The notes under the pieces: model-generated | The model's database searches: none | Seen by the model: the letters and a program-made list of their open reading frames with translations, nothing else | What the model was told of the DNA's origin: nothing | Shown here: one piece after another, positions 1,541 through 23,894 of the stretch | Position numbering within the stretch: the stretch's first letter is position 1 | How the letters are laid out: each line of letters opens with the position of its first letter | Origin: a virus | Virus record (IMG/VR): IMGVR_UViG_3300035704_000398 | Span: 1-28,801 of that record | Strand: one strand, 5' to 3' | DNA: 28,801 nucleotides | Position numbers and translations under genes: made by a program

Positions 1541-1588
1541 TGGATCGCCTCTCTCGTCACACAAGGCCAGGCGCGCCCCGCGCCGTCC

Positions 1589-1617
1589 GGATTGCAAGGT
1601 AGCCGCTGTAGCAATCC
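1589..1617. promoter_or_regulatory. Inverted repeat, possible XRE operator
   Basis: GGATTGC at 1589-1595 is matched by its exact reverse complement GCAATCC at 1611-1617, in the divergent spacer between the 69-aa gene and the XRE regulator. The centre-to-centre distance of 22 bases is about two helical turns, as expected for a dimeric repressor. Autoregulation is inferred. Confidence 0.35.
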
Positions 1618-1666
1618 AGCGTCTAGTCGATACCACAAGAAAGTTCCGCAAGTCGCCCAACCGGGT

Positions 1667-1679
1667 TACGCTGCGCACG
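1667..1679 (+). promoter_or_regulatory. Leaderless -10 element of XRE gene
   Basis: TACGCT (1667-1672) fits the TANNNT -10 pattern and ends six bases before the GTG at 1679, so transcription could start at the start codon itself. There is no good Shine-Dalgarno sequence before this GTG, which agrees with a leaderless message. The -35 region is weak (TTCCGC). Confidence 0.35.
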
Positions 1680-2551
1680 TGCCGGGGATCACCGTCAGCC
1701 GAATCCGCCTCAGCAACGAACTCGTGAAGTGGCGCACCACGGCGAAGGTCAGCCGTAAGGCCGCTGCCGACGTCGCGGGATGCTCGCTGTCGCACCTCGG
1801 CCACCTGGAAACCGGCCGGAACGCACCCAGCACCGAAGACCAGCTAGTTAAGCTCGCGCGTCTCTACAAGATCCCTGACGAGGCACTCGATCACCTCAAA
1901 CGCCTTTGGACCGATGCCAGCAACCCCGGCTGGTGGTCGATCTATGGGCTGTCCCCTGACTACGCGCGCTACGTCGGGCTGGAAACCGATGCCGAACAAG
2001 TGCTGGCCTGGGAAACACTAAACATCCCCGGCTTATTGCAAACCGAACGTTACATGCGCCACAAATTCAGCTTGGACATCCCCCGACTATCCGCTCGCGA
2101 AATCGACAAGCGAGTGCTGACCCGACTGAACCGGCAACACCGAATCAGCGGTGGGGATAATCCTCTCCGACTGGTGGCGGTCGTCGACGAAATAGCCGTG
2201 CGGCGAGCCATTCATACCCCGCTGGTGGCGGCGGGTCAGCTGGACCAGCTCATCCACCGAGCGTCGTTGCGGAATGTTGAGCTTCACGTGTTGCCGTGCG
2301 AGGCAGGCATCCACGCTGGACAAGACGGCGCGTTCTCGATCTTGAGTTTCCCCCACGCGTGCCCCGTCACCCCTGAACCGCTGCTAGAGCCGGTCGTATA
2401 CCAGGAGTTCCCTACCGGCGGTGACTGGACCGCTGTTCCCTCGGACGTCGAGCGGATGCATACTCGCCTCGACGCGCTGCGTAGCCAGGCCCTCGGCCCC
2501 ACCGAGAGCCTGGCTTGGCTTACGCAGCTCGCCAAGGAACACACCCAGTAA
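1679..2551 (+). CDS. XRE-family regulator with DUF5753 domain, 290 aa
   Basis: The N-terminal part (about residues 8-62) is a Cro/CI-type helix-turn-helix, with KAAADVAGCSLSHLGHLETG as the helix-turn-helix core. The rest, from about residue 95, matches the DUF5753 ligand-like domain of actinomycetes, including W-x-x-x-x-I-P-G-L-L-Q-T-E-x-Y. The open frame extends back to 1403, but the first 92 codons look non-coding and overlap the oppositely oriented 69-aa gene. The GTG at 1679 gives the usual family length of about 280-290 residues. A DUF397 gene follows 22 bases downstream. In this family the regulator and its DUF397 partner usually occur together and influence development or secondary metabolism; the target here is unknown. 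Confidence 0.9.
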   Translation: MPGITVSRIRLSNELVKWRTTAKVSRKAAADVAGCSLSHLGHLETGRNAPSTEDQLVKLARLYKIPDEALDHLKRLWTDASNPGWWSIYGLSPDYARYVGLETDAEQVLAWETLNIPGLLQTERYMRHKFSLDIPRLSAREIDKRVLTRLNRQHRISGGDNPLRLVAVVDEIAVRRAIHTPLVAAGQLDQLIHRASLRNVELHVLPCEAGIHAGQDGAFSILSFPHACPVTPEPLLEPVVYQEFPTGGDWTAVPSDVERMHTRLDALRSQALGPTESLAWLTQLAKEHTQ

Positions 2552-2573
2552 GCACCGGCAGAAAGGAACGACG

Positions 2574-2768
2574 GTGACGCCCGACCCGTCTGCCGCTACG
2601 TGGCGTAAGTCTAAACGCAGCGGCAACTGTGGAGCATGTGTCGAGGTCAGTGATGATCTAGTCCCCGGCGCGTGGGCAGTGCGGGACACCAAACAGCTCG
2701 GACGAGGCCCCGTGCTGGTCTTCCCGCTTGATCAGTGGCGCGAGTTTGTTAACTTCGTGGTCACCTAA
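2574..2768 (+). CDS. DUF397 protein, 64 aa
   Basis: The protein has the DUF397 hallmarks in order: WRKSKRSG, then G-x-C-V-E-V, then VRDTK, then PVLVFPLDQWREFV. The start is a GTG preceded by GAAAGGA six bases away. It lies 22 bases behind the XRE-DUF5753 gene and is almost certainly co-transcribed with it. DUF397 proteins are small partners of these regulators; in characterised cases they act as antagonists or co-factors of the HTH protein. A very strong hairpin terminator follows. Confidence 0.9.
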   Translation: MTPDPSAATWRKSKRSGNCGACVEVSDDLVPGAWAVRDTKQLGRGPVLVFPLDQWREFVNFVVT

Positions 2769-2790
2769 CCGTCACAGGTTGTATTCGCAC

Positions 2791-2840
2791 AAAAAAACGT
2801 GCATCCCACCATTTTCCAGCGGTGGGATGCACGTTTTTTT
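2791..2840. terminator. Bidirectional intrinsic terminator
   Basis: A perfect 20-base inverted repeat (2791-2810 and 2821-2840) with a 10-base loop begins with seven A and ends with seven T. It lies between two convergent genes, DUF397 on the plus strand and the SnoaL-like gene on the minus strand, and should stop transcription from both sides. Confidence 0.92.
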
Positions 2841-2849
2841 AATGAGAAA

Positions 2850-3716
2850 CTAGGAAGGGACGGTGACCCCCACCAGCGGCGATGGATCCAGGTAGACCTG
2901 GTACTTAGTCATTTTGGTGCCATCGGAGGTGAAATACGAACCCGTTGCGAAAGGCACCGTCACCGTGGCGCCGTCGAGCTTCGTGAACGTGACGGTGCCG
3001 GTGGTCGTCGCGTACAGGTCCTCTCCCCATAGATGATAGCTCGTCAGGTGATGTTCCACCGACTCGATCTGAGAGAAGAAGCCCTGCGTGAATTCAGTTA
3101 TCGCGGTACGCCCGGTGAGCCTCGGGAAGTTACCCCAGGTGAATTCACCTTGATTAACGAAGTTAGAGGCGAAAGCAATGGCACTGCCCGAATCGACGTA
3201 ATCGAGTAGATCGTTGAACCACTGTTCGGAGAGGATCTTCGGTGGTCCCGGCTGGCTGAGCCGAGCGGCCCGAACACCCACCTTCTCTGAGTCCGGCACC
3301 CGGATACGCATAGGTCGTTGCAGCTCCCGCGGCACCCGCAGCGCCGCGGGAGCTGCGACCTCCGCGGCCGGTGCGGTGGGGCATTGCGGGTGCGGCAGGT
3401 CAAGTAACTGCCATATCGCCATATCCATCGGGCCGACCCACGCCCACATCACGGTGCCCGGAGGGTTCAGCACCAGCGGGTTCGGCTCACCATCGGGGAC
3501 ACGAACACCGCCGGGATTGGCCAGCCGCACCGCAGCCGCGTGACCCTCCCGGTGCATGGTGACCATGTCGACGTGGTTGGGCCACTCGTAGACGGCGATC
3601 ATCGCGTCGGGGTCGTCTTTGGGGCCGAAGCAGTACCCGGTAAACCCGTCAGCGAGCAGGGCCTCTACCAGGCCCCTGAACAAATCTTCTTGTTGCTGGG
3701 CAACGGTCGTCGCCAT
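2850..3716 (-). CDS. Two-part protein with C-terminal SnoaL/NTF2-like domain, 288 aa
   Basis: Residues of about 162-280 have the shape of a SnoaL-like (NTF2 superfamily) cone: an opening helix WFNDLLDYVDSG, a central W-G-N-F-P-R-L-T-G-R-T-A-I segment typical of nuclear-localised-ketosteroid-isomerase-like folds, and then paired beta strands (YATTTGTVTFTKLDG and the following ones). Residues 1-110 form another domain with several Trp that I do not recognise, joined by an Ala/Pro-rich linker. No signal peptide or membrane helix is seen. The start ATG has GAGGTG eight bases upstream. Such domains bind or convert small hydrophobic ligands, but the substrate cannot be told. It is a single-gene unit closed by the terminator at 2791-2840. 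Confidence 0.6.
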   Translation of the reverse strand: MATTVAQQQEDLFRGLVEALLADGFTGYCFGPKDDPDAMIAVYEWPNHVDMVTMHREGHAAAVRLANPGGVRVPDGEPNPLVLNPPGTVMWAWVGPMDMAIWQLLDLPHPQCPTAPAAEVAAPAALRVPRELQRPMRIRVPDSEKVGVRAARLSQPGPPKILSEQWFNDLLDYVDSGSAIAFASNFVNQGEFTWGNFPRLTGRTAITEFTQGFFSQIESVEHHLTSYHLWGEDLYATTTGTVTFTKLDGATVTVPFATGSYFTSDGTKMTKYQVYLDPSPLVGVTVPS

Positions 3717-9139: not shown

Positions 9140-10126
9140 TTAGCTTTCGGCGACGTAAGCACCGCCGGGCGCGGCGTAATTCAGGGTGATGCCTACCGCA
9201 TTGGCGGGCGCGGTATAAGCCGGGGTCGGCCAATGGTTGCGGATGCTGTGCCCTTTCCCGGTCGGCGTGAATGTCGGATCCACGGGACGGAGGCTGCCAT
9301 CGGGCATGATCCAGCTCGCGAGGTACAGGAAACCGCGGGTCGCGTCAGCAGTCCGGCCGCCCCATTCCTGGCAACCGAACGTGAATGAGTAGGGCCCGAG
9401 GAATCCCACGTCATAGTTGCGTTGCGGCCACTGAGCGGGGTCACTGTTGGGGTCGGTCGGCATGGTGGTGGCCGGTAGCTGTTGCATGTGGGCACGGTCC
9501 TTTCGGAGCGCGAGGAGGACAGGTGCAGGTCCGGGGTGTTGCCCGAAGTCGGGTAGCCGTTTCGCCTCGTTGACGTCGCATTCCACACCGCCCACGGTCA
9601 CGAGACCGACCCGCTGGTAAATGTGCGCCCGCGGTTCGATTTGGCCCCCGGACCACGCGGCGGCTTGCCAAGCCCAAGTCGCCGTCCCGTTGTCGAGGCA
9701 CCGTTTGACGACGTAATAGGAGCCGTACACGCCGGTGCGGTCGATACCGATGATCCCGGCCACGGCACGGAGGTAAGCGTCGATCACGGCCTGCTCGCCG
9801 GGCGAGGCATCCCAATCGGCGGAAAAGAAAATCGGTCGGTCACTCGGGACGCCGAGAGCTTGGGCTACCGCGTTGGCGCTGATCGCATCAGCGAGGCCAG
9901 CGGCGGCGCCGCCCCGCATCCGGTCCGCGGTGGTTTCCCAGTTGAGAACGACACTGATACCAGCGGATTGGAGCCGGGCGTATTCGCCCGGCGTGAGGAG
10001 CTTACCCGGCAGACCGGGGCCCCCAGAGGTCAGATAGCGACACACGAAGGAATAGCCAGCGGATGCGATAGCGGTGGGATGGGGTAGGCCCCCGGCGTAA
10101 TCAAGGCCGAGTAGTACTACTGCCAC
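9140..10126 (-). CDS. Endolysin with DUF1906 glycoside-hydrolase-like domain, 328 aa
   Basis: Residues 1-190 match the DUF1906 (Rv2525c-like) TIM-barrel domain: GLDYAGGLP with Asp9, VVLNWETT with Glu64, PIFFSADWDAS with Asp104 and Asp106, then VYGSYYVV and E-C-D-V-N. These acidic residues lie where glycosidase-like barrels keep their catalytic groups. Residues of about 230-328 form a Trp- and Gly-rich C-terminal domain that I do not recognise, possibly for cell-wall binding. The start is a GTG with AGGGGG upstream. Holin and another membrane peptide follow, so this is the lysis module. An ATG at residue 214 with AAAGGA upstream may allow separate production of the C-terminal part. DUF1906 enzymes are presumed to cleave the peptidoglycan of the host, but the bond cut is not known. 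Confidence 0.88.
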   Translation of the reverse strand: MAVVLLGLDYAGGLPHPTAIASAGYSFVCRYLTSGGPGLPGKLLTPGEYARLQSAGISVVLNWETTADRMRGGAAAGLADAISANAVAQALGVPSDRPIFFSADWDASPGEQAVIDAYLRAVAGIIGIDRTGVYGSYYVVKRCLDNGTATWAWQAAAWSGGQIEPRAHIYQRVGLVTVGGVECDVNEAKRLPDFGQHPGPAPVLLALRKDRAHMQQLPATTMPTDPNSDPAQWPQRNYDVGFLGPYSFTFGCQEWGGRTADATRGFLYLASWIMPDGSLRPVDPTFTPTGKGHSIRNHWPTPAYTAPANAVGITLNYAAPGGAYVAES

Positions 10127-11039: not shown

Positions 11040-11467
11040 GGCATCTGCTGCTTGAGCCGCTCACGGCGCCGGGCCTCTTCGAGGAGGAAGTAAATGCGGC
11101 CCAGCAGGGTGAGAGTGATCCCAGCGTATCCGATACCCGACACGAGGCCCTGGCTGTGCAAACCGAGGACAACACCACCGCCGTAGATAGCGGCACCGAG
11201 CGCGGCGAGTGACAACCCGAGAACTTCCCTGGGGTAATTCGCATTCAAAATACTGGAGACGATGAGGACGCCACCGATAATCATAAACACACCCATGACG
11301 CGGATAACGGTGGATCCACCGAGGTCGGCGAACGCTTTCGATGCACCCTCACCGAGAATGAGCGCGACAATGCCGACCGTGGTAAGCGCCAGAGGGAGTA
11401 TGACCGGTGTTTGGGCTTTTCTCCACGCCTGATACAGGCGGGCAATGGTGTTTCGAATTGACTTCAT
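11036..11467 (-). CDS. Four-helix membrane protein, 143 aa
   Basis: Four hydrophobic segments are visible at residues of about 21-38, 54-73, 81-102 and 107-128, with a basic N-terminus (KSIRNTIARLYQAWRKAQ) and a charged C-terminus (EEARRRERLKQQ), so both ends probably face the cytoplasm. GAGGCG lies upstream of the ATG. Membrane proteins of similar size sit between tail-fibre and lysis genes in many actinophages; whether it aids lysis, as an additional holin would, or superinfection control cannot be read from the sequence. Confidence 0.65.
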   Translation of the reverse strand: MKSIRNTIARLYQAWRKAQTPVILPLALTTVGIVALILGEGASKAFADLGGSTVIRVMGVFMIIGGVLIVSSILNANYPREVLGLSLAALGAAIYGGGVVLGLHSQGLVSGIGYAGITLTLLGRIYFLLEEARRRERLKQQMP

Positions 11468-11483
11468 CGGCGCCTCGGCTCTT

Positions 11484-13604
11484 TTAGGTGAGATCGACGT
11501 CCGCTAAAGCGGTGTCGGTGATAGAGGTGTCCCCGATGGCGCTTTCGGCGATTGATGTTGGGCCGGTAGCGACGGTCGACAACACCAACTGGTGTTGGTT
11601 GACCTCAATGAGGCGCACATCGGCGCTGAGGAATTCTTTGACCACAATTGAGCGGGCCACGGGCAGCCAGTTGAGGATGTCGCCGTGGACACCGACCAAC
11701 CCGAGACAGCTGACACCAGCGGTGCGCGAGCGTTTAGCGGGTAGCCCGGCGCCGCTCAGGGCGATGAAGCTGAACCCGCCGACGTGAGCGACCGCGCGAG
11801 CGGTGCCGGTACCGGACAGCCCGAGGTAGCACACCGCGTGACCGGCGGCGAGTTTCGTCACCCGGCCGCCGGTGCCGACCAGGCCCACGCTGACCACACC
11901 GGTTTGCCCGGTGATCAGCTTTCGGTTGGTGGCCGCGCCGGACAGACCGAGGTAAACCGGTCCGCCGGTGATGGAGATCTTCATCGCAGCGGCGGTGCCG
12001 GTTACGCCCAGCGGCCCAATGCCGCGGGTGATCGCTACACGGGCCGCGGTGGCTGACCCACTGATGCCCAGCGAGGCCGAACCGCGGGCCGCGGTGAGCC
12101 GGTGCGCGTCGCCCGTAGCAGCGAGGCCGATGTGACTGGTACCGGTGACCCCGGTTGTTTTGTGGGGGCTGCTGTTGGCCGTCAATGCCACCGAGCTGGT
12201 GCCCGTGGTTTGTGCGACCCGCGCGCCGGTACCGCTGGTGGTGAGTCCGAGGTTGCTGTCACCGCGTTGACCGCTGCTGATCTTGCTGATGAGCCCGGCG
12301 GTGCACGCCAGGCCCAGTGACGTCGAGCCGCCGGTGATGGCGACCTTCACGGCGGTGCTGGTTGCCGTCAGGCCTAGGAATGATCCCGACGCGATGACGG
12401 GCGCGTAGTGGACTCCAGCGAGCCCGAGCGCGGCCGTACCGCCAGTGGACGCGACCCGGACCTGTGTGCCATCGCCGCTGACACCGATCGCGCTGGTGCC
12501 ACCCTGAGCGGCGCTGCGGTGCTGCACCGCAGCGGTAGCGAGCCCGAGCGCGGCAGTACCGGACTGCGGTGGCGCCTTGACGGCTTTACCGGTGCCAGCC
12601 AAACCCGCAGCCACGGTCCCCGCTTCGGGGGCGGCTTTGCGGCCCGACGCGACACCAGCGAGCCCGAGCGCAACAGTCCCGGTTTGCGGAGCCGTCTTGC
12701 GCTGCTGGCCAGTGGCGGCGAGCCCGAGCGCGGCCCGACCACCTTGCGCGGCAGTGCGGTGCTGCACACCCGTCGCGGCAAGCCCGAGCGTGCAGCTGCC
12801 GCCTTGAGCGGCGTTGCGGTGCTCGATACCGGTAGCGGCGAGCCCCAGGGCGCAAAGGCCGGCTTCCGGCGCAGCCTTGCGATCAACGCCCGTAGCGGCC
12901 ACACCCAGCGCGGCGGTGCCCTTGTGCGGGGCCACCTTGCGTCCTGTGGCTGCGCCTGCGAGCCCCAGCGCGGCAGTGCCACCTTGGGCAGCGGTGCGGT
13001 GCTGGACACCGGTGGCGGCCACACCCAGCGCTGCTGTGCCGCCTTGCGGCGCGGTCCGAGGTCGGCTGACCGTGCCAGCAAGGCCGAGCGCGGCGATACC
13101 GCCTTGCGCGGCTGTGCGGTGTTCGACGCTCGTGGCGGCGATTCCCAGCGCGGTGGTGCCGTCAGTGGGCGCGGCCTTACGGCCGGTGCCCGTAGCAGCC
13201 AGCCCAAGAGCCGCGGTGCCACGCTCGGGAATGATGATCCGCAGCGCGGTGGCCGCCAAACCGAGCGCGCCGGTACCGGTTTGCGGGGCGGCCTTGCGGC
13301 CGGTACCGGTGGCCGCCAGTCCTACCGCGCTGGAGCCCTGCTGCGGAACTGCCTTCCGGCCAATACCCGTAGCAGCAACACCCAGCGCGGCAGTTCCAGC
13401 TTCGGGGCCGACCTTGCGGCCGGTGCTAGTCCCGGCCAGACCCAGAGCGCACGTGCCGCCCTGGACCGCGACCTTGACGGCAACACCCGTGGCCGCCATG
13501 CCGAGCGCAGCGGTACCGCCCTCAGCGCTCGCGAGCACCACGACGCCGCGAACCGGACGGATCCACCGGACATGCGCTGGGAAGGTGCGACCTAACCGAG
13601 CCAC
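11484..13604 (-). CDS. Giant 20-residue-repeat tail-fibre-like protein A, 706 aa
   Basis: After a 29-residue head, about 30 tandem units of near 20 residues run from residue 30 to 629, followed by a partial unit and a different C-terminal part (residues of about 643-706). The consensus unit is G-T-x-A-L-G-L-A-A-T-G followed by a variable basic stretch such as TGRKAAPQT or VQHRTAAQG. A few units have 18, 19, 21 or 22 residues. A 20-residue period of alternating small and hydrophobic residues suits a beta-solenoid rung, so this is probably a rigid fibre; that is inference. The start is a GTG with GGGAGG upstream, the same context as protein B. It is the distal gene of the second copy of a three-gene cassette. 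No catalytic motif is seen. Confidence 0.8.
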   Translation of the reverse strand: MARLGRTFPAHVRWIRPVRGVVVLASAEGGTAALGMAATGVAVKVAVQGGTCALGLAGTSTGRKVGPEAGTAALGVAATGIGRKAVPQQGSSAVGLAATGTGRKAAPQTGTGALGLAATALRIIIPERGTAALGLAATGTGRKAAPTDGTTALGIAATSVEHRTAAQGGIAALGLAGTVSRPRTAPQGGTAALGVAATGVQHRTAAQGGTAALGLAGAATGRKVAPHKGTAALGVAATGVDRKAAPEAGLCALGLAATGIEHRNAAQGGSCTLGLAATGVQHRTAAQGGRAALGLAATGQQRKTAPQTGTVALGLAGVASGRKAAPEAGTVAAGLAGTGKAVKAPPQSGTAALGLATAAVQHRSAAQGGTSAIGVSGDGTQVRVASTGGTAALGLAGVHYAPVIASGSFLGLTATSTAVKVAITGGSTSLGLACTAGLISKISSGQRGDSNLGLTTSGTGARVAQTTGTSSVALTANSSPHKTTGVTGTSHIGLAATGDAHRLTAARGSASLGISGSATAARVAITRGIGPLGVTGTAAAMKISITGGPVYLGLSGAATNRKLITGQTGVVSVGLVGTGGRVTKLAAGHAVCYLGLSGTGTARAVAHVGGFSFIALSGAGLPAKRSRTAGVSCLGLVGVHGDILNWLPVARSIVVKEFLSADVRLIEVNQHQLVLSTVATGPTSIAESAIGDTSITDTALADVDLT
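11718..13517 (-). repeat. About 30 coding repeats of near 60 bp
   Basis: This is the DNA span of the 20-residue units in protein A. Units nearest the 5' end of the gene (about 12400-13517) are very alike at base level and fall into two alternating subtypes; units nearer the 3' end (11718-12400) are more diverged. That gradient suggests recent expansion in the N-terminal half by unequal crossing-over or slippage. Confidence 0.9.
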
Positions 13605-13637
13605 GGGAGCCTCCCAGCCTCGCTAGCTAGTCGGCTA

Positions 13638-14126
13638 TTACTCCGTCCACACCATGTACGTAATGGCAGCCACGATCGCTGGCGCGACGATTTGGATACC
13701 GAAACCACCGGCCGCGGTGGTTCCCGACTCCGGTTCCTGGCCTAGCGGGAATTGAACAACCAGTCCCGACGTCGGGGGTACATAGAAGGTCCGCAGGATC
13801 ACGCCCACTGTCGGTGCGGTCGTCGCATAAACACCCGGCGATGCGGTCGTCGGCATATAAGCGGTACACAGTGACGCCGGTGACGCTGGGTCCAAAGCCG
13901 TCGCCGCTTGAGTGATCGTGCCACCACCGACCGGTGCGACTGTGGTTCTCACGAGCCGGACAATCACCGGTACCGCTGTTGCGGTAACACCGTTGAATGA
14001 AACACCGAACTCATTGACGGACATTCGTCGGGTTGTGCTGGTAGGGGCTACGTCTAAGACCACCAGCGCGGTTGCCGCGCCGAGGTTAATCGCTTCGGAC
14101 GCGGCGTGGTACTGGTCATAAGCCAT
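13638..14126 (-). CDS. Structural protein of duplicated fibre cassette, copy 2, 162 aa
   Basis: The protein is rich in Thr, Val and Ala and looks all-beta. It contains FGVSFNG at about residue 40 and ends AAITYMVWTE. The 166-residue protein at 16362-16862 has WGVSFDA in the same region and ends SLVYMMYAE, and both precede a gene for a 20-residue-repeat protein, so they are paralogues. A virion role is inferred from the location in the tail-fibre locus. Confidence 0.7.
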   Translation of the reverse strand: MAYDQYHAASEAINLGAATALVVLDVAPTSTTRRMSVNEFGVSFNGVTATAVPVIVRLVRTTVAPVGGGTITQAATALDPASPASLCTAYMPTTASPGVYATTAPTVGVILRTFYVPPTSGLVVQFPLGQEPESGTTAAGGFGIQIVAPAIVAAITYMVWTE

Positions 14127-14142
14127 GGACGCTCCTGACGGG

Positions 14143-14829
14143 TTAGTAGAACGAGGCGCGTTTCATGGCCTGGCGAACAATCAATGGTTTACGCGGATAA
14201 ACGGTTGCCGCCGGAGTGGTTAGTTCCACTGCGGAAATGTTCGACGACAAACCACCCGCCGCGGCAAGGCCAATAGTCTTCACGCCAGCCGCCCCGGCAT
14301 CGAGATAAATACCGGGGTAGTTGCTGGCCGTCGTGTTCGTCGTACCTTCGGCAGTGAATGTGCCCGCGGTGGCGGTGCTCCAGGTGACGGGATTACCGGA
14401 GTCGGCGTCTTTCAGGATCACCGCGATAGCGGAGCCCGCGGCGGTGGTAGTGATGGTTGTTTGCTCAGAACCGATCGTGTTATCGGAAGCGGACTTCACC
14501 GCACCGGTAGCCGTGACCCCCGTCAATCGAAGGACGACCGCTCCCCACACGAAGGTGCCGACCGCTCGCGCCACGGAAATCGTGAACGTTTGCGCGGCGG
14601 CACAAGGTGCGGTGAGGATCGCCGTCGAAGCATATGGGGTATTGGCTTGGGTTCGGGACGTGAATGTCAGCGCAGGGCTACCGCCCGTTGTTGAATACGT
14701 GTCGTTTGTCGCGCCACTGGCGCACATCACCACAAGGAAATCGCCCACTGCGACGGTGACGCTGGCGGTTTTCGGGGACGTGGTGGTATTCCACGCATTC
14801 ACGTAGACCGCCGCTACCGCGATTGCCAT
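14143..14829 (-). CDS. Beta-rich tail protein of duplicated cassette, copy 2, 228 aa
   Basis: The protein is Thr-, Ala- and Val-rich with a lectin-like or jelly-roll-like strand pattern, including VTVAVGDFLVVMCASG in the first third. It ends with PLIVRQAMKRASFY. The protein at 16876-17580 ends SLIVNKALRRSAFY, and its first third holds the equivalent N-S-L-L-V-A-I-V-A-C, so they are paralogues. The ATG overlaps the stop codon of the preceding gene (TAATG). It is probably a minor tail or fibre component. Confidence 0.7.
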   Translation of the reverse strand: MAIAVAAVYVNAWNTTTSPKTASVTVAVGDFLVVMCASGATNDTYSTTGGSPALTFTSRTQANTPYASTAILTAPCAAAQTFTISVARAVGTFVWGAVVLRLTGVTATGAVKSASDNTIGSEQTTITTTAAGSAIAVILKDADSGNPVTWSTATAGTFTAEGTTNTTASNYPGIYLDAGAAGVKTIGLAAAGGLSSNISAVELTTPAATVYPRKPLIVRQAMKRASFY

Positions 14830-15491
14830 TACATGGTGGTGGCGTCGAGGACGAGTGCAGCAGCCGCGACGGTGATCTGCCCTTGACTGGCGAATACCTC
14901 CGGCACAACGCGCTGCCAGAAGCCTTCACCACCACCGAGCGCGGTGATGTCGATCGCGGAACCACCCAAAGTCAAAGATACCTGGAATGAGTTCGTGGCT
15001 GAACCCACGACGTACAGCAACGAGCCCTCAGTCAGGCCAGTGGGCAGGGTCTCGGAGAAAACGTTGTAGAGGATGACCCGGTCGCCGTTGGACATGCCGT
15101 GCGCAGCGGAAAGCAACGCATCATTGGCGATAACGTCCGAGGTGAAAAACCCTTTCAACGGGGTGGTACCACCGAACGGAATGAACCCGAGGTACTGGGT
15201 ACCGGAGTTCAATGTCAGCGTGTTCCACAAGGTGAAATATGCGTAGGTACCAGCGGCGACGTCAAACGCGAAAGTGTTGGTATTAGTCTTCTGCCCCGAC
15301 GCTGCGGCACCCCAGGTCGCGGCGAGCCGTGCATAAGCCGGGGAACCACCAGAGGCCTCGGTGCCGCCCGCGGTCAAAGTGGTTCCGGGGTCACCGCTGG
15401 CCAGGTGGATCCCGACATATTTGACGCCCGTAGCCACCGACTCATCGAGTGCATCGAGAGCAAGATTCCAGGCTTGAGTGTTGAAAGGCAT
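14829..15491 (-). CDS. Tail-fibre-type protein, 220 aa
   Basis: The N-terminal half fits a common phage fibre pattern: YVGIHLASGDPGTTLTAGGT, then SPAYARLAATWGAA, then a strand block around AYFTLWNTLTL. The second half holds ANDALLSAAHGMSNGDRVIL and then LPTGLTEGSLLYVV and NSFQVSLTLGG, a repeated beta module found in many tail fibres. The ATG at 15491 has AGGAGC upstream; the longer frame to 15647 overlaps repeat protein B and was rejected. It separates the two copies of the duplicated cassette. Confidence 0.75.
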   Translation of the reverse strand: MPFNTQAWNLALDALDESVATGVKYVGIHLASGDPGTTLTAGGTEASGGSPAYARLAATWGAAASGQKTNTNTFAFDVAAGTYAYFTLWNTLTLNSGTQYLGFIPFGGTTPLKGFFTSDVIANDALLSAAHGMSNGDRVILYNVFSETLPTGLTEGSLLYVVGSATNSFQVSLTLGGSAIDITALGGGEGFWQRVVPEVFASQGQITVAAAALVLDATTM

Positions 15492-15499
15492 TCCCGCTC

Positions 15500-16327
15500 C
15501 TAGATAATTTTCACTGTTGCGTGATATGAGTTGGTGATTTCGGTGTCGGCCATGTCCTGATAGGTGATGACCACAGACAGAGCCCGAGGGGGCCATGGGC
15601 GGATGGTCTTGACTCCAGTGCCCTGCCCGGTCAAGCCGAGCGCGCATATCGCCTTGACTGGAATGACTTTGCTTTCAGCACCCGAGCCGGATAATGCGAC
15701 GGCACAAACACCAGCCGTTTTCGCGACTTTCCGACCGATGCCGGTACCAGTGAGGCCTAGGCAGCTGGTGCCCCGGACCGTTTCCCGTAACGCGCTGGCG
15801 GTCAGGCCCAGCGCGGCGATACCAGTTCCACGCGCCGCCTTGAGCGGTGTGCTGCTCGCGGACAGGCCTAACGCGACGCTGCCGAGCGTTGGGGCGGCTT
15901 TGCGGCCGGTACCCGAGCTGGCCAACCCGAGCGCGCTGGTGCCCAGCTGGGCGGTCTTCTTAACGGCAGTGCCAGCAGCAGCGAGGCCCATAGCGGCGCG
16001 GCCGGATTCGGGGGCGGCTTTGCGGCCAGTACCCGTGGCCGCCAACCCGATCAGCGCCGCACCGGACTGCGTAGCGGTGCGTCGCTCGCTGCCGGTTGCG
16101 GCGAGCCCGATAGCTGCTGAGCCAGCACCGACCGCGTGTTTGGAACCGATGCCGGTACCGGCTAATCCCAGGGAGCACCGGCCGCCGGTCACCGCGACTT
16201 TGACGGCGGTACCGGTCGCTGCGACGCCCAGCGCGGAGGTGCCCTGTTCTGCGCTGAATTGAACGGGGAGCGCGGCCCGACCGATTCGGTTTCGGTTATT
16301 GCTGAAACTGAGGCCCGCTCTAGCCAC
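15500..16327 (-). CDS. 20-residue-repeat fibre-like protein B, 275 aa
   Basis: It has the same build as the 706-residue protein. There is a 28-residue head and then about 11 units (residues 29-245) of the type G-T-S-A-L-G-V-A-A-T-G plus a variable basic stretch. One unit is shortened to 17 residues. A 30-residue C-terminal tip, different from that of protein A, follows. The first two units align with the first two units of protein A (TAVKVAVTGG against VAVKVAVQGG), which points to duplication of a whole gene. The GTG start lies after GGGAGG, like protein A. It is the last gene of the first cassette copy. Confidence 0.8.
   Translation of the reverse strand: MARAGLSFSNNRNRIGRAALPVQFSAEQGTSALGVAATGTAVKVAVTGGRCSLGLAGTGIGSKHAVGAGSAAIGLAATGSERRTATQSGAALIGLAATGTGRKAAPESGRAAMGLAAAGTAVKKTAQLGTSALGLASSGTGRKAAPTLGSVALGLSASSTPLKAARGTGIAALGLTASALRETVRGTSCLGLTGTGIGRKVAKTAGVCAVALSGSGAESKVIPVKAICALGLTGQGTGVKTIRPWPPRALSVVITYQDMADTEITNSYHATVKII
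15593..16243 (-). repeat. About 11 coding repeats of near 60 bp
   Basis: This is the DNA span of the 20-residue units in protein B. The repeats keep reading frame and share the unit of the array at 11718-13517, but are fewer and more diverged from one another. Confidence 0.88.
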
Positions 16328-16361
16328 GGCGCCTCCCGACGATCACGTGAATCGGACTCGG

Positions 16362-16862
16362 TTATTCGGCGTACATCATGTAAACCAGCGACCCGACTGA
16401 CGTTCCCGCGGTAATCCGAACGCGCCCGAACTTCCCGGATCGGATCACGAATTCGTACCCGAGAATGAAGTCATAAATGAACTGGTTCGTCGGCTGGATC
16501 AGCTGGGCGTCGCCGACCCGGACCGCGGTGATCGTGCCCTCGGCACTGGCGTTGTAGCCGGTCGTTGTGGTGCTGAGCTGCGCTAGTGACGCGGCGGCCG
16601 TGGGGTTGTTGATGGCGTGCAAACCAGTGGAGGTGTGCGCGGTTACAGTGGCCGCGACATCCGTTTCGATCAGCTCGCATTCGATCGAGACCCCGGCTGC
16701 TGCGGCGTCAAACGAAACGCCCCACCCGACGACCGCGATGTCTTTGCTGGTCGGACCGACGAGTTGGATATGGGTTTTGATCGCGGTCCCGGTCGCGAGT
16801 TTCGCTACGGCCGCAGTCGTTGGCATCGGCGCGTTGAAAACTTTGTAAACGTTGATCGCCAT
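16362..16862 (-). CDS. Structural protein of duplicated fibre cassette, copy 1, 166 aa
   Basis: This all-beta-looking protein has WGVSFDA around residue 50, followed by a strand ECELIETD. Its last third, YEFVIRSGKFGRVRITAG, is followed by the ending SLVYMMYAE. It is the paralogue of the gene at 13638-14126. It lies between the 234-residue beta protein and repeat protein B. A virion surface or fibre-base role is inferred from context. Confidence 0.7.
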   Translation of the reverse strand: MAINVYKVFNAPMPTTAAVAKLATGTAIKTHIQLVGPTSKDIAVVGWGVSFDAAAAGVSIECELIETDVAATVTAHTSTGLHAINNPTAAASLAQLSTTTTGYNASAEGTITAVRVGDAQLIQPTNQFIYDFILGYEFVIRSGKFGRVRITAGTSVGSLVYMMYAE

Positions 16863-16875
16863 TCGGCGCGCCCCT

Positions 16876-17580
16876 TTAGTAGAAAGCTGAGCGCCGCAGC
16901 GCTTTATTGACGATCAAGCTCGGTGCGATAAACGCTGACGCTGGCAATATCTCCAGCGCGACGTTCCCCTGGGTGCAACTGGAGCCCCATGTGCCACCGA
17001 ATGTCGTGGCACCCGGAGAGGTGGTGGCCGTTGTCGATTTCCAGCCCGCTAGGTACGAACCGTTTGGCACATCGGTCATCGTGTCGTACACGGTCGTGGC
17101 GGCGTTCGGGGTGAATGCGCTGGAATTGTTGTAATTGTCTGCGATCCCGTAGACAACGGAACCGATCTGAGTAGTGGTCACCGAGTAGGTGTCCGCGGTG
17201 GTCGCCGAGGTGACGGAGTTGGTCGCGGTCGCCGCTCCTGTTTGGTTTGTTGCGGCGCCTTTGAGGACCCGGACCGAGAGGAACTCGTCACCGGCGTTAT
17301 TCGAGTACGCTCCGGACGCCGTGATGCTTCCCGGCGCGGTGGTGAGCTGGCATTCCCAGATCGCCACCGTGACGTGGGCGACAAGCTCCAGCTTTTTGGT
17401 CCAGGTGTGCGTACCGGAATCGGTAACCGTGATCGCACCGTTGCTACCGCTGGAATAGCAAGCCACGATCGCGACGAGTAGCGAATTAGCTGGCGGCGAG
17501 AACGAGGCAGTCGTCAGTGTTCCCACCACGCTGGTGTTGCTGACCAATACTGGGGTTGATGCGTCCTCTGTGATCGCCAT
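16876..17580 (-). CDS. Beta-rich tail protein of duplicated cassette, copy 1, 234 aa
   Basis: It is Thr-, Ser- and Ala-rich with regular beta strands; ANSLLVAIVACYSSGSNGAI resembles a segment (EGDLLVIFAAVRNSGAGAIV) in the distal tail protein at 21243-22649 as well as its paralogue at 14143-14829. It ends SLIVNKALRRSAFY. The ATG overlaps the upstream stop (TAATG), giving tight coupling. No enzyme motif is visible. It probably forms part of the adsorption apparatus. Confidence 0.7.
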   Translation of the reverse strand: MAITEDASTPVLVSNTSVVGTLTTASFSPPANSLLVAIVACYSSGSNGAITVTDSGTHTWTKKLELVAHVTVAIWECQLTTAPGSITASGAYSNNAGDEFLSVRVLKGAATNQTGAATATNSVTSATTADTYSVTTTQIGSVVYGIADNYNNSSAFTPNAATTVYDTMTDVPNGSYLAGWKSTTATTSPGATTFGGTWGSSCTQGNVALEILPASAFIAPSLIVNKALRRSAFY

Positions 17581-17981
17581 TAGCCGATAACCACCTCGAA
17601 CGACACCTCATAAACCTCGTCGATAATCCGTTCGACGTAGCCAGTGATCGGGTCGGTCAATTCGGCTTGGATCATGACCAGTGGGCAGCGCCACCCGGAG
17701 GTTTGCGTGGGTGTGACGTGCAGCTGCACCTGATCGGTGACCGCACCCCCAGCGGTAGCGAGGCCTTGGGTACCGGTCGGGGCGGTCGACCATTCCGCGA
17801 CAACAGGGTTGAGCATGCGGTACTGAAACAACCGGCGGCCCAGCACTCGACGTTCGTAAAGCGCCCGAGCGACCGCGTGAACCGAGGCGCCGGTGACGTC
17901 CATGGGCTGCCCGGTCCGCACATTGATAATGCTGTTGGCCTCGATCCAACAATCGACACCCTGGCGAATGATGTTCGGCAT
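17580..17981 (-). CDS. Minor tail-region protein, 133 aa
   Basis: The protein opens MPNIIRQGVDCWIEANSI and contains D-V-T-G-A-S-V-H-A-V-A-R and a C-terminal block TSGWRCPLVMIQAELTDP then VERIIDEVYEV. I recall similar short proteins in actinophage tail-fibre loci, with no known function. It overlaps its neighbours by one to a few bases on both sides. No signal peptide or metal site is seen. Confidence 0.65.
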   Translation of the reverse strand: MPNIIRQGVDCWIEANSIINVRTGQPMDVTGASVHAVARALYERRVLGRRLFQYRMLNPVVAEWSTAPTGTQGLATAGGAVTDQVQLHVTPTQTSGWRCPLVMIQAELTDPITGYVERIIDEVYEVSFEVVIG

Positions 17982-18498: not shown

Positions 18499-19746
18499 TC
18501 ATATCGCGTAGGTGACTTGGATGTAGGGACGGTAGGAAGCCGAAAAGCCGTAGCCGCGCATACCGGTAGCCGAGTCGCTGAAATGGTAAGAACCGCCCAG
18601 GACGCTATTCGCGCCGCCCGTAAGAACATTCGTTATTTCCGAGGAGATATCGAACCCGTTCCAACTGTTCACGACCCACAGGTTTTTGACGTCAAGACCA
18701 GCGAACCCGTTGTTAGGAAACGTCGCTGCGATAGCCGCAGTGGGGCTCCACATGAATGTCCAGTCCGCTGGCGAGCTGGACGCCGCGAAACAGTAATAGA
18801 ACATTTGCGCGCTCAGGATCGTGGCGCCAGCCAAATCGGTTCGCATAGTCGCCGCGTCGAACGTCCACATGCTCGCCTCGTTACCGAATGACCGGCTCGA
18901 CAATGACCAGGAATACATGTTGTTGTCACCATCGGGCGACCCGATAAACGTCCCATCGGATTTGTAGCTGCGACTGCCGGTCGCTGGGTATTGCGTCACG
19001 TAAGTGGTGGCGCCACTGCTCGGCCCCAGTTCGGAGATCCGCAACCACGAACCCGTTTGCAGGGTCGCCGCGGTGGAACCGCTATCGAGACCGACCCGCA
19101 GCTGGAGGATGCCTCCGGTGTCCGAGGTCGCGAACCACCCATCGGGGCGGCAGACGGTGGCTGCGCCACCACCACCGACCGATTGGGTGCTGCCGTCACC
19201 GTAGGCCTGAACAATGGCCGACGTGATGGAACCGCTGGTGGTTCCCGCGGTGGTCACCCCGTACATCGACCACCTGGCCAGCATGTTCGGCGGACCGTTC
19301 CACGCGAATTTGATATCCGACGCGGTGGCGGCGTTGAAAAACAACGCACCGTCGATTCCGTACTCGGTGTCCTCATTGAGCAGGAAGCTCAACGTGCCCG
19401 CGTTGATCAGTGCGGTGCTCGGCACGGACAGGTCACTGCGCAGCCGGGAATAGCGGATCGGGTCGATCAACGTCACGCCTCTAGCGGAGCCCAGCATTCC
19501 CATCACGATGTAACCGCCGGGTGCTTTGGTGAGCAGCACCGTGCCCGTGGTCAAACCATTCGGCGAGACCACCGGCAAATTCCGGTAGGTCACCGGGCCG
19601 ACCAGGACTGTGTTCGAGAAGCTGACAGCGTCCCATTGGGTCATGACGCCACCAACCCAGTCCTGCGCGAGCGTCGGATCCGCTGGCACAGAACTGGGTG
19701 TGATGAACAGCCGCGTCAAGCTAAATGCATCTGCGGGTGTTGGCAT
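18499..19746 (-). CDS. Minor tail protein, probable fibre, 415 aa
   Basis: It is a large, Ser/Thr/Gly-rich, beta-type protein with many aromatic residues and no membrane helix. It contains a small Gly-rich joint (SVGGGGAATV) near residue 195 that may separate two domains. The last strand block (GYGFSASYRPYIQVTYAI) is typical of a jelly-roll closing strand. It follows the DUF5047 minor tail protein with a TAATG overlap. Receptor or carbohydrate binding is plausible but no catalytic motif is evident. Confidence 0.7.
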   Translation of the reverse strand: MPTPADAFSLTRLFITPSSVPADPTLAQDWVGGVMTQWDAVSFSNTVLVGPVTYRNLPVVSPNGLTTGTVLLTKAPGGYIVMGMLGSARGVTLIDPIRYSRLRSDLSVPSTALINAGTLSFLLNEDTEYGIDGALFFNAATASDIKFAWNGPPNMLARWSMYGVTTAGTTSGSITSAIVQAYGDGSTQSVGGGGAATVCRPDGWFATSDTGGILQLRVGLDSGSTAATLQTGSWLRISELGPSSGATTYVTQYPATGSRSYKSDGTFIGSPDGDNNMYSWSLSSRSFGNEASMWTFDAATMRTDLAGATILSAQMFYYCFAASSSPADWTFMWSPTAAIAATFPNNGFAGLDVKNLWVVNSWNGFDISSEITNVLTGGANSVLGGSYHFSDSATGMRGYGFSASYRPYIQVTYAI

Positions 19747-20966
19747 TACAGAATCCCGAGGCCCAAGGAAAGTCCTTCCGTTGCGGTCGGAATCCGCGTG
19801 GTGATCGTGCCAGGTTGGTCAGCGGTCAAGGGAATGACAATGGTGTCCACAAAACACCGGAACGGTGGAACGTCGCGACGGATGACGACGTCGATAGGGT
19901 CGTTAGTTTCCAGCGCCGGGTTGGGCACGACTTGCAGGGTGAACGTCAACGGCAACGCGATGTAGCGCCGCAGCAGCACCTCACCGGCAAGTTCCACATC
20001 AGCGTCGACTTGGAGCAGCGGGGAGGAGTAGTACGTGGGGCTCGGACCGAACGCTGGATACGTTTTCTTGTTCCACGCCAACGGGCTGTTGGAATCACCG
20101 TTGAAAGTAACGATAAAGTCAGTGATACTGGAGGGGTCACTTCCATATGCAGTTACCACATTATGGACGTCGGTCCTTTTCACGGACCGTTTTGTGTTAA
20201 TGATGGCGCCACCCGCACCGGAATGTAGCGTCGCCACCGCGTGCGAGAAGTCGAACTTGAGGGAATACACTTCCATCTCGCCGCGGGTATTGAACCGGAT
20301 CGCCGCGTAATAGAACTTGATGAGCTGCGCGAGATAAGCGTAGGAATCGTCTTCGACGATTTGGTCACCGATGATTTTCACTTTGTCCGGGTCGTAACCC
20401 GTCCAGTTGATCGGCACCCGCGCATACAGGTACATCCCATACCCGTCCGGTGACAGACCGGGATACGTCGCCTGCTGGGGGATGGCGATCCCGTTAACGA
20501 GGCGTTGGAACACGTCGCGGTGCGAGTCACCATTGTTCAACGGCAGCGGGAAGACCAGTTTGTTCTGTTGGAGTTGTGCCGTGCGGTCCAGGCAAGTCAA
20601 GACGATGGGGCCCAGAGGTGCACTATCTTGGCTTGCTTGTTCAATCCGATGGTAGCCAAGGCCGACATATTCGCAGTCACCGTTGGCGAATTCGATGCCG
20701 CGTTCGATGTAGATTTCCGCACCGAATGGCTGCACCTTATCCCAGTAGCTTTGGCCATCTGGCGCGTCGCCACCGGGCACCGTGAGCGTCAGAGTGCTTT
20801 TGATATCGGACAGGGATTGCACTGTGACGTTCCCACCGATGACGGGGATCGTGTCGCCGGTGGGGCTCGGCCCGAACTGCGGGACTGGGTTGGCCAGCGT
20901 CGCCCGGACAGCCATCTTGTGCGGCCCCTGCAATGCGGCGAGGAACCGATCCGAGACGGCGTGCAT
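19746..20966 (-). CDS. DUF5047-type minor tail protein, 406 aa
   Basis: The beginning, HAVSDRFLAALQGPHKMAVR, and the later CEYVGLGYHRIEQASQD and CLDRTAQLQQNKLVFP blocks match the DUF5047 family of actinophage tail proteins, which sit after the distal tail protein and are thought to be baseplate hub components. I start it at the ATG of 20966, which overlaps the previous stop (TGATG) and has GAAGGG upstream; the frame runs further, to 20990, but lacks a ribosome binding site. It seems complete. Confidence 0.82.
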   Translation of the reverse strand: MHAVSDRFLAALQGPHKMAVRATLANPVPQFGPSPTGDTIPVIGGNVTVQSLSDIKSTLTLTVPGGDAPDGQSYWDKVQPFGAEIYIERGIEFANGDCEYVGLGYHRIEQASQDSAPLGPIVLTCLDRTAQLQQNKLVFPLPLNNGDSHRDVFQRLVNGIAIPQQATYPGLSPDGYGMYLYARVPINWTGYDPDKVKIIGDQIVEDDSYAYLAQLIKFYYAAIRFNTRGEMEVYSLKFDFSHAVATLHSGAGGAIINTKRSVKRTDVHNVVTAYGSDPSSITDFIVTFNGDSNSPLAWNKKTYPAFGPSPTYYSSPLLQVDADVELAGEVLLRRYIALPLTFTLQVVPNPALETNDPIDVVIRRDVPPFRCFVDTIVIPLTADQPGTITTRIPTATEGLSLGLGIL

Positions 20967-21208
20967 CAGGGGCCCTTCGGGTCGAGCCATTCGATTCGCG
21001 TGCCGTATTCGGGATGGCCGTGTACTTCGTAGAAGTCTTCCCAGTTACACCACACCGAATGCGATCGGTATTTCCCTGTCCAACGGCACACGACGGTGCC
21101 GTCAGTGAAAACAATCCCCTCGTAATCCGGTGCCGCCCCAGCTTGGGTGAGGTCTTTCGCCACATACTCAGCCGGGGGTGTCACCCGGAAACCCTGAAAA
21201 CGCCACAC
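20966..21208 (-). CDS. Small conserved phage-type protein, 80 aa
   Basis: The pattern E-G-I-V-F-T-D-G-T-V-V-C-R-W, then R-S-H-S-V-W, then VHGHPEYGTRIEWLD is a widespread small actinomycete and phage protein that I recall but cannot name. It looks like a compact beta fold. The start is a GTG with GAGGGG upstream. It lies between the distal tail and DUF5047 proteins and is coupled to the latter, an unusual place for this type. Confidence 0.65.
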   Translation of the reverse strand: MWRFQGFRVTPPAEYVAKDLTQAGAAPDYEGIVFTDGTVVCRWTGKYRSHSVWCNWEDFYEVHGHPEYGTRIEWLDPKGP

Positions 21209-21242: not shown

Positions 21243-22649
21243 TCAGAGACCGACGAGGGCGTCCGCGGGAGTGCCAGTCAACGCGAGCACGGAGGTCCAC
21301 GTCGCATTTGCGGCGAGCACGTCAGCCCAGGTGCCGTAATTGGTCAGCAGCGTTGCCCAGGTGACGAGGTTCCCGGTGATCGCGAGGCTCGGGCGAACCA
21401 CCTCAGTGAGCGGGATCGTGAACGTCGCCCGATGGCTCAAATGCGCGGGCTTGATGTTGGTGTAAGTCCCCAGGCCCGCGTACATCGATTTCAGCGACAC
21501 ATTCGCCGGGATGTGCAGTAGCACCACCGTGCCCAGTGACAGCACCAGATCCACCGCGGCGGTTTCGGTGTCGTCTTGGGTGAACAACCGGATGGTGACT
21601 TTGCGCGGCACGTGAGTGTCGGTCGCAGCGATAGCGTTGTGCTGCTGAACGATCGTGAAGAACCCGACGCGGCTGGTGCGTTCCAGCTCATCCCAGCCGA
21701 TCAGCAGCACTGAGCGATTGAGATACGGGGCCTGGACGAATTTCAACCACACCTGCGTCATTCCCGGTGTGATCGTGGCGTTGGTGCGGGTGACGTAATC
21801 GGCGCTGCGCAGCGCCACTGCCGCGCCGTAGGAGATCTGCGAGGTACCGCCGGTCACGACGAATGCCCCACCGGCCAGCGGTGCGGCGGTGGCTAACAGC
21901 TGGTAATCCCAGACCATGCCCATGTCGTTGCCCGCGGTGGCGACCGGTTCGCCGATCTCGACGGCGCCCGTGATGGTCGCCACCGAGGTCCAGTCGTCTT
22001 GGCGCCATCCCAAGAAGAGGGCCAAATCCCAGCTGGACTGAAACGCCGACAGCAGCGGGTAGTTGATGTTCGCCGCGGAAGGGTTCAGTTGGTAACCGCT
22101 GGCGGCCGGGACCAGCTCGACGTTGCGCCAGCACGCCATTTGCGCCATCACATCGGCACCCGCGACGCCACCGGTGATGGTGACCGTGGGCGCCGATTCC
22201 GAGGCGGTTGCGCGGCGGCCGAGCAGCGCGATGTTGTCCACGCTGAACATGACGGTCCACCCGGCCGGGGTGACGATCGCGCCCGCACCGGAGTTGCGCA
22301 CCGCGGCGAAGATGACCAGTAGGTCGCCTTCGGCGTAGCCAGCTGGCACGGTCGGGGTCACCGCTGCGTTCACCGCGGTGACGGCCGTGCTGGAGGCCAC
22401 GAACGTCGGTGCGCCCGTATCCACCGCCGACACCCGGTAATAGTTCAGGGCGTTCGGCGAGAATTCGTAGTCGTACAGGCTGGCCGTATTGCTGGCGATA
22501 AGCACCGCTGAGCCGCCGCGCACAGTGGTCCAATGGATCTGGTCGGTGCTCTGTTCGAATAGCGCCACGTCGGCTGTGGAGGGCAAGCTGGTGGCCGTGC
22601 ACAGCACCCTGGAAAACGAGTCGTCGTAGGTGAGGGTGAGGGCGGCCAT
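21243..22649 (-). CDS. Distal tail-like minor tail protein, 468 aa
   Basis: It is the first gene after the tape measure protein, the place of Dit-like proteins that cap the tail tube. The first 90 residues look like an Ig/FN3-type beta sandwich (YDDSFSRVLCTATSLPSTAD and later ALNYYRVSAVD). A central domain contains PAGYAEGDLLVIFAAVRNSG, related in pattern to the cassette proteins at 14143 and 16876. The C-terminal third has WLKFVQAP and a strand-rich block. The ATG overlaps the tape measure stop. The exact domain family is not certain. Confidence 0.72.
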   Translation of the reverse strand: MAALTLTYDDSFSRVLCTATSLPSTADVALFEQSTDQIHWTTVRGGSAVLIASNTASLYDYEFSPNALNYYRVSAVDTGAPTFVASSTAVTAVNAAVTPTVPAGYAEGDLLVIFAAVRNSGAGAIVTPAGWTVMFSVDNIALLGRRATASESAPTVTITGGVAGADVMAQMACWRNVELVPAASGYQLNPSAANINYPLLSAFQSSWDLALFLGWRQDDWTSVATITGAVEIGEPVATAGNDMGMVWDYQLLATAAPLAGGAFVVTGGTSQISYGAAVALRSADYVTRTNATITPGMTQVWLKFVQAPYLNRSVLLIGWDELERTSRVGFFTIVQQHNAIAATDTHVPRKVTIRLFTQDDTETAAVDLVLSLGTVVLLHIPANVSLKSMYAGLGTYTNIKPAHLSHRATFTIPLTEVVRPSLAITGNLVTWATLLTNYGTWADVLAANATWTSVLALTGTPADALVGL

Positions 22650-23848
22650 TAGACGATCGTCCCGCGGCCCATACGTGCAGCGACCGCGATGCCTTGAGTC
22701 ATGGCGCCGATTTCGCTACTCACGATTGACCTCAGTTCAGTCTCGCCGATCTTCACGGTGACGAATGTGTGTCCACCACCACCGGCGTCAGCTCCGTGGG
22801 GAGTGATGAACCCATTCGAGCCCATGTGGAGGATCTCGCGGCCGTGCTCACCGACGACGTAAGACTTGCCGCCCATCACTGGGCCACCGGCGGCTCTACC
22901 ACCGCCGAATAGGCCGGAAAAAAAGTTGCCGATGCCACTGATGATGCCGCCGAAAAAGCCACCGATACCGCCGCCGCCGGACGTTGTTCCGCCGGTGCTG
23001 CCGGTGGTGCCGCCACCGGCGCCGCCGATACCGCTAACGATCGATCCGATACCGGTCAAGATGGGTGCCACGAAGTTCAGGATCTTGGCGAACCAGCTGG
23101 CGAGCACACTCACGATGGGCAACAGGCTGATGAGGATGTTCGCGAATGCGGTGAACATCGAGATCATCGAGGGGAGCATCGTTTCGATGATCGGCAGCAG
23201 TGTGGAACCGAGCCCGGCGAATGACTGCATCCACGCTTGGATCGAGGCGACTACTTGCGGTTGCAGCAGGAATTGGACGAGCTTTTCCCGCAGGTTGCCC
23301 AGCATGGTGGCGATGCCACCGAGGCCTTGACCCAAGATCGGGAAATACACCCGAGCGAGTTGGTCAACGTCGCCGGAGAAGCCCAGCCAGAAGCCTTGCT
23401 GAATGATGCCGTACAAGTTTTTCAATTGCGGTGTCAGCAACCGAACTGACATCACCGCGTCTTTCATCGCGGGCGCCATATTTCGGGTAGCCGCAACGAA
23501 TTCAGCGGGACTGGCAGCACTAATAGCGGTGGAGAAGTTCGCCATAGCCATATGGGCTACGTTCATCGGTGAAACCAACGCGAGCAGGAACCCCGGCATA
23601 ACGAGGAACAGGCTCGCGAGTTTACCGAACGCCCGGAAAATTCCATTGACTAACGGCTTGACGTTACCCCGCAGTAGCGACGTGAACATTTTACCGATGC
23701 CCACCACCGCGGTGCCGAGCTTACCGATTCCCGCAGTGGCGGATTTCGTTGAGCTCAGCAAACCGGTGACGGAGCCCCGGAAGTTAATCATCACACTGCG
23801 CTGGCTGCCCTGCCCACCGCTCGCTGAGGATGACGCAATCGCGGACAT
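22649..23848 (-). CDS. Short tail tape measure protein, 399 aa
   Basis: Features of a tape measure protein are a helical, Ala/Gly/Leu-rich body with hydrophobic stretches (residues of about 70-95 and 215-265), a Gly-rich hinge, and the familiar C-terminal signature AAGGPVMGGKSYVVGEHGRE. The start is the ATG at 23848 with GGAGG six bases upstream; the frame runs two codons further to a TTG that would abut the ribosome binding site. At roughly 1.5 angstrom per residue the tail would be about 60 nm, which is short for a siphovirus. It comes two genes after the tail assembly chaperone, separated by a Gln/Gly/Pro-rich protein. Confidence 0.88.
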   Translation of the reverse strand: MSAIASSSASGGQGSQRSVMINFRGSVTGLLSSTKSATAGIGKLGTAVVGIGKMFTSLLRGNVKPLVNGIFRAFGKLASLFLVMPGFLLALVSPMNVAHMAMANFSTAISAASPAEFVAATRNMAPAMKDAVMSVRLLTPQLKNLYGIIQQGFWLGFSGDVDQLARVYFPILGQGLGGIATMLGNLREKLVQFLLQPQVVASIQAWMQSFAGLGSTLLPIIETMLPSMISMFTAFANILISLLPIVSVLASWFAKILNFVAPILTGIGSIVSGIGGAGGGTTGSTGGTTSGGGGIGGFFGGIISGIGNFFSGLFGGGRAAGGPVMGGKSYVVGEHGREILHMGSNGFITPHGADAGGGGHTFVTVKIGETELRSIVSSEIGAMTQGIAVAARMGRGTIV

Positions 23849-23894
23849 TGGCAACCTCCCCAGCGCTGTTTAGTTATTAGGTTTTCAAACTGAG

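Follow-up and report, generated by a model that had tools for sequence, protein, structure and literature searches.

The 28,801-base window analysed here, a soil virus contig from IMG/VR, carries on its minus strand two homologous three-gene sets, which we name A1-B1-R1 (234, 166 and 275 amino acids, aa) and A2-B2-R2 (228, 162 and 706 aa), and between them an intervening gene, M. We put at about one in two the probability that each set is a tail-fibre (adhesin) cassette, belonging to a long-tailed phage of actinobacteria, and that B links A to R. The case is built on gene order, homology, the predicted folds of A and B, the existence of fused and split forms, conserved protein ends and the co-variation of those ends with B.

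Each fibre of the virion would consist of separate polypeptides, namely an adhesin-like head (A), a jelly-roll connector (B) and a repeat shaft (R). A would supply a pair of adhesin-type beta-sandwich domains that bind the host surface, while R would form an extended shaft, built from 20-residue repeats and carrying an end segment of its own, and the difference between about 10 repeats in R1 and about 31 in R2 would produce two fibre lengths. B would receive the basic C-terminal tail of A and the N-terminal MARxGRxxP anchor of R, binding both ends and so joining A to R, and the bodies of A and R would be exchangeable behind these conserved docking ends. The suggestion in the original prediction that one virion carries two adhesins is a sound reading of the homologous pairs, their identical order and their tail-tip position, after the tape-measure and DUF5047 tail genes and before the lysis genes. 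The two adhesins may, as it also suggested, have different tips. We advance more tentatively, as a generalization that we would rather question than assert, that this is a widespread and hitherto undescribed 'plug and socket' in which a jelly-roll connector and two matching docking peptides allow actinobacterial phages to turn one-piece fibres into exchangeable two-piece ones, with two such fibres of unequal reach per virion.

Fused and split forms of the fibre

Two related contigs, L100 and L101, match the window at ~70-90% identity in the tail genes that run from the tape measure through U133, X460 excepted. In place of A1-B1-R1 they encode a single protein of 513 or 514 aa, in which the A1 domain (63% and 59%) is followed directly by the R1 repeats and the PWPPR C-terminal segment (45-46%). 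Missing from this fusion, as judged by alignment, are the last ~18 residues of A1, the first ~27 residues of R1 and the whole of B1, and a B profile search of the complete 79-kb L100 record returned none. L100 retains M (73%) and an R2-like protein (45%) that is without the MARxGR anchor and has other genes in front of it. Two further contigs, L002 (8001-11021, 1006 aa) and L103 (9920-12988, 1022 aa), encode A1-repeats-A2-repeats within a single protein, which means that some relatives carry both cassettes as one polypeptide. By the gene-fusion argument, such fused forms argue for A and R acting within a single structure.

Relatives also bear on the intervening gene, which the original prediction called fibre-type. 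Its ORF of 272 aa matches Gp80 (Pfam PF23140, podophage GP4 fibre I protein; E 1e-6, 29.2 bits vs a gathering cut-off of 27), and its most likely start is the ATG at 15491 that follows AGGAGCGGGA, which gives 220 aa. Genes like Gp80 lie ahead of A in L007, L014, L015 and L017 and ahead of the fused protein in L002 and L103, from which a fuller unit M-A-B-R can be read; M would then probably be the first gene of the second unit in the window, the first set being without one. Within the module, M alone belongs to the Gp80 family; A, B and R give no match to it.

Other arrangements around repeat shafts were also seen. In L100 (12225-15312) and L008 (13932-16477) a different gene set precedes the shaft, comprising a ~280-aa two-repeat protein and a protein of ~115-218 aa, and these shafts begin with VSLTIRHFVLYTP or LTVAVKHYHAHWLP in place of MARxGR; this alternative set may represent a second connector type. 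In L004 (8484-9254) an R-type anchor is joined to a beta-rich domain and not to a repeat shaft, the domain being kin to the protein at the A position in L007 (49%).

Conserved ends and their co-variation with B

The ends of A and R were compared across 16 modules that were selected by motif, which inflates the figures. The last 13 aa of A had a mean identity of 34% vs 9-11% immediately upstream, and the first 16 aa of R one of 45% vs 9-12% further in. When modules were picked by the R anchor alone, the A tail motif was present in 18 of the 21 that had an upstream open reading frame (ORF), compared with 42 of 5956 ORFs overall. A conserved end on a variable body is a trait of tail-fibre and receptor-binding proteins, and the A and R modules display it.

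Pairwise similarity between B proteins correlated with that of the R anchor (r 0.58, p 0.0002) and of the A tail (r 0.30, p 0.0002), the values for the bodies and other stretches of A and R being 0.03-0.16. Individual cases of exchange are consistent with this pattern: B1 is 83% identical to the B protein of L009 and the accompanying R bodies are unrelated (E 3.4), while, conversely, the bodies of R1 and R2 are alike and their B proteins are 30% identical. An electrostatic match between the partners (A tail +3, R anchor +4/+5, B about -2) was set aside as evidence, since B is equally acidic in other contexts.

Homology and age of the two cassettes

All six genes described in the original prediction are present on the minus strand with the coordinates and lengths that it gave, as are the paired endings that it quoted (LIVNKALRRSAFY with LIVRQAMKRASFY, YMMYAE with YMVWTE, and WGVSFDA with FGVSFNG), and both repeat genes begin with GTG, with GGGAGG 4-5 nucleotides (nt) ahead. 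Pairwise and profile comparisons showed the three gene pairs to be homologous in matching order. R1 and R2 are 46% identical across 265 aa (E 2e-46), and without their N-termini the bodies still align with E 1e-44 and 46-49% identity. B1 and B2 share 30% across 141 aa; independently built profiles align in hhalign with E 4.9e-7, and a single B family hidden Markov model (114 sequences) retrieves both (E 9e-62 and 1e-44). A1 and A2 match weakly in direct BLAST (29 aa, E 0.01), but separately built profiles align over ~200 columns in hhalign (E 1e-5), and the A1-clade and A2-clade profiles each recover the other member of the window after one iteration (E 3e-8 and 3e-5). The 20-residue repeats are likewise genuine, the period-20 score being 1.12 in R1 and 1.33 in R2 vs shuffled maxima of -0.19±0.05 and -0.30±0.04. 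Among R homologues the repeat sequences differ and the periods are mostly 18-21, which indicates a conserved geometry. A tandem-repeat finder reported zero DNA-level arrays over its threshold, and the repeats are therefore old at the DNA level.

The pairs had been called duplicated, and an identical gene order occurring twice, together with R bodies that are 46-49% identical, could suggest that a single three-gene cassette was recently duplicated in tandem, leaving a spare, redundant copy. We regard this as very improbable. A tree of 92 B proteins places B1 and B2 in two deep, supported clades, each nearer to B proteins of other phages (B1 to L009, 83%; B2 to L004, 82%) than to one another (24-30%). 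L100 has one orthologue of R1 and another of R2, whose C-terminal ends are separately conserved, and the DNA repeats shared within the window are confined to the repeat arrays, with no longer common block found. As judged from these sequences, the two cassettes are not a recent local copy; either their divergence or their acquisition lies far in the past. A 100-kb contig, L008, carries one B of each clade, and L005, L037 and L071 have two B genes as well.

Predicted structures

AlphaFold predicted B1 as a jelly-roll (mean pLDDT, the predicted local distance difference test, 93.4) and A1 as two beta-sandwiches (93.9) with an unstructured tail outside the fold (68). The nearest solved folds are, for B, viral capsid jelly rolls, a phage cement trimer and TNF-like proteins (best Z 9.4) and, for A, the Tuc2009 receptor-binding head (Z 6.8), both being weak matches at or near the usual chance level. 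The predicted fold types are common ones, and function is unproven by them. Profile sequence searches of A and B against solved structures gave none. Matches in a viral structure library were to proteins of Streptomyces phage Coruscant and of podophages, with function unassigned; the 252-aa Coruscant match was sought in the Coruscant tail region and not found there. B has no Pfam match and, with 92 family members scanned, no PHROGs match. Pfam matches of window proteins to SpoVAD and DUF2673 were below cut-off and were disregarded.

Recurrence of the module and of B

Scans of viral contigs with profiles of the B2 type, the B1 type and the A type gave 11 loci, the best 80 of 235 loci and 47 loci, respectively. 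The order A-B-R, with the tail motif on A and the anchor on R, was present at 16 loci on ~14 distinct contigs, with 9-18 nt from A to the start of B and ~30 nt from B to R. At 12 further loci B is followed by A, several of these having R directly behind A. In one Streptomyces genome the full order adjoins phage capsid and prohead protease genes (L151/L153), and at L152/L154 B with R has the same phage neighbours. The original prediction had called for a search of the gene order elsewhere and knew of no described phage system with this module; no description was found in the literature, in a search of limited coverage, but the order itself recurs in ~15 other uncultivated viral contigs and in at least one Streptomyces phage or prophage.

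B is present in 6 of 199 genomes from the genus of Streptomyces sp. ISL-98, and a scan of genome contigs yielded one Streptomyces prophage with the B1 profile and no confirmed match with the B2 profile. Against 50,697 phage records, tblastn with A1, A2, B1, B2, R1 and three relatives as queries found none, R1 perhaps having been partly masked for low complexity. Lone B-family genes occupy the usual distal tail protein position in Streptomyces-type prophages (L065, L146, L025 and ~32 other loci). In the Streptomyces element with A-B-R at L153, a 199-aa protein with an ADP-ribosyltransferase exoenzyme domain (2405-3004; PF03496, E 3e-9) adjoins the prohead protease/capsid gene.

Connector or separate tail-tip proteins

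Several observations weigh against B as a link between A and R. At ~35 loci B lies between tape-measure-like and hub-like genes with no A or R neighbour, which implies a role for B outside the A-B-R module, and in the B-..-A-R order A touches R without B between them. The structural matches are of the low significance given above, adjacency linkage can yield some co-variation without binding, and R1 of the window, which starts MARAGLSFSNN, deviates from the anchor consensus. The weaker correlation of the bodies with B may also in part reflect saturation, although the two-way case of R1, which shares its connector with L009 and its body with R2, avoids this problem. The lone B genes and the B-..-A-R order would suit an arrangement in which A, B and R, as three individual tail-tip proteins, each dock on a common baseplate partner, B being a receptor-binding or decoration jelly roll and the conserved ends serving as baseplate docking signals; the fold of B, which resembles many stand-alone virion jelly rolls such as cement proteins and TNF-like lectins, points the same way. 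We consider this possible, if rather doubtful, as the tail, the anchor and B are jointly lost once A and R are fused, and the R anchor co-varies with B.

A small gene beside a fibre gene is in the usual position of a chaperone, and co-variation of B with the fibre N-terminus would also be compatible with a fibre assembly chaperone like Tfa or gp38 that stays outside the mature fibre. This seems improbable to us, given that B is predicted to fold as a rigid jelly-roll, a type often seen in virions, follows the N-terminal anchor of R in its sequence variation and not the C-terminal end, is found between tape measure and hub without any fibre neighbour, and matches none of the known chaperone families in the Pfam and PHROGs scans described above. 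Mu-like phages switch paired fibre cassettes, and the two sets could by analogy be alternative fibres exchanged by DNA inversion or recombination and not carried together. Such switching is scarcely credible here, where the two cassettes share a strand and a single run of genes, and a search of 11400-17700 found no inverted repeats of at least 18 nt.

Relation to known fibre systems and significance

With B as connector between A and R, the nearest precedents function alike but differ in construction, and A-B-R is a variant of modular phage fibres and no new type of system. In podophages of the K1-5, G7C and KP32 type, the second receptor-binding protein docks on an adaptor via a short conserved N-terminal peptide of 7, 11 or ~29 residues (PMC6872550). 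These phages resemble our proposal in having two adhesins per virion and swappable bodies behind such a peptide, which R also possesses, with a putative docking role. They differ in that the adaptor proposed for the window is encoded by a jelly-roll gene of its own that both cassettes contain, and in that A would contribute a further docking tail, located at its C-terminus. No Pfam or PHROG match of A, B or R points to a T4gp10-like adaptor, no directed profile comparison having been made. The long tail fibre of T4 is made of four proteins (gp34, gp35, gp36 and gp37) and is similar in that several polypeptides join lengthwise into one fibre that includes a small joint protein (PMC3004832), but the searches made revealed no sequence relation, and the fibre of the window has fused and split forms in sister phages and two complete sets. 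Among actinobacterial siphophages, mycobacteriophage Douge has tail-tip proteins with beta-sandwich domains that were shown to bind the host surface (PMC13033339); unlike the window, the available part of that report presents a single central fibre protein and a BppU with a carbohydrate-binding module, and does not describe an A-B-R cassette.

If the proposal is true, actinobacterial phages mix fibre parts at a protein boundary, a small jelly-roll family without a Pfam or PHROG model gains a testable connector role, and a site is marked where fibres can be cut and rejoined. Nature has provided fused and split versions, which makes the question directly testable. Should the proposal be wrong, the catalogue of these versions still records modular fibre evolution in uncultivated phages.

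Gene map and surrounding region

Table 1. Features of the two cassettes and of the surrounding region of the window.
Feature	Position	Strand	Description
A1, 234 aa	16876..17580	(-)	Two tandem beta-sandwich domains (~1-108, 109-213; predicted) and unstructured basic C-terminal tail (FIAPSLIVNKALRRSAFY)
A1 C-terminal docking tail (proposed), last 18 aa	16879..16932	(-)	Missing from fused A1::R1 in sister phages
B1, 166 aa	16362..16862	(-)	Predicted jelly-roll protein, proposed connector
R1, 275 aa, GTG start	15500..16327	(-)	N-terminal anchor, 20-aa repeats (~10) and a PWPPR-containing C-terminal segment
R1 N-terminal anchor (first ~27 aa)	16246..16327	(-)	Missing from fused A1::R1 in sister phages
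M, 220 aa (ORF 14829-15647, internal start)	14829..15491	(-)	Gp80-like small tail or fibre protein
A2, 228 aa	14143..14829	(-)	A1 homologue; C-terminal tail YPRKPLIVRQAMKRASFY; start overlaps M stop
B2, 162 aa	13638..14126	(-)	B1 homologue from another clade of the B family
R2, 706 aa, GTG start	11484..13604	(-)	Anchor MARLGRTFPAHVRWIRP, 20-aa repeats (~31) and a C-terminal segment of its own
Tape-measure protein	22649-23854		Upstream of the cassettes
DUF5047 tail protein	19746-20990		Between tape measure and cassettes
Rv2525c-type endolysin	9140-10126		Downstream of the cassettes, as are two small hydrophobic ORFs
ATP-dependent DNA ligase domain protein, 215 aa	5456-6103	(+)	Strand opposite to the tail genes
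Helix-turn-helix (HTH)/DUF5753 regulator	1403-2551	(+)	Type common in actinomycetes; strand opposite to the tail genes

A comparison of the window DNA with deposited phages found zero similarity, and its DUF5047 tail protein was not found in four Streptomyces genomes that carry B. The same protein has distant kinship with minor tail proteins of Streptomyces, Brevibacterium and Rhodococcus phages. The tape-measure-like protein is, at 401 aa, short for a siphophage.
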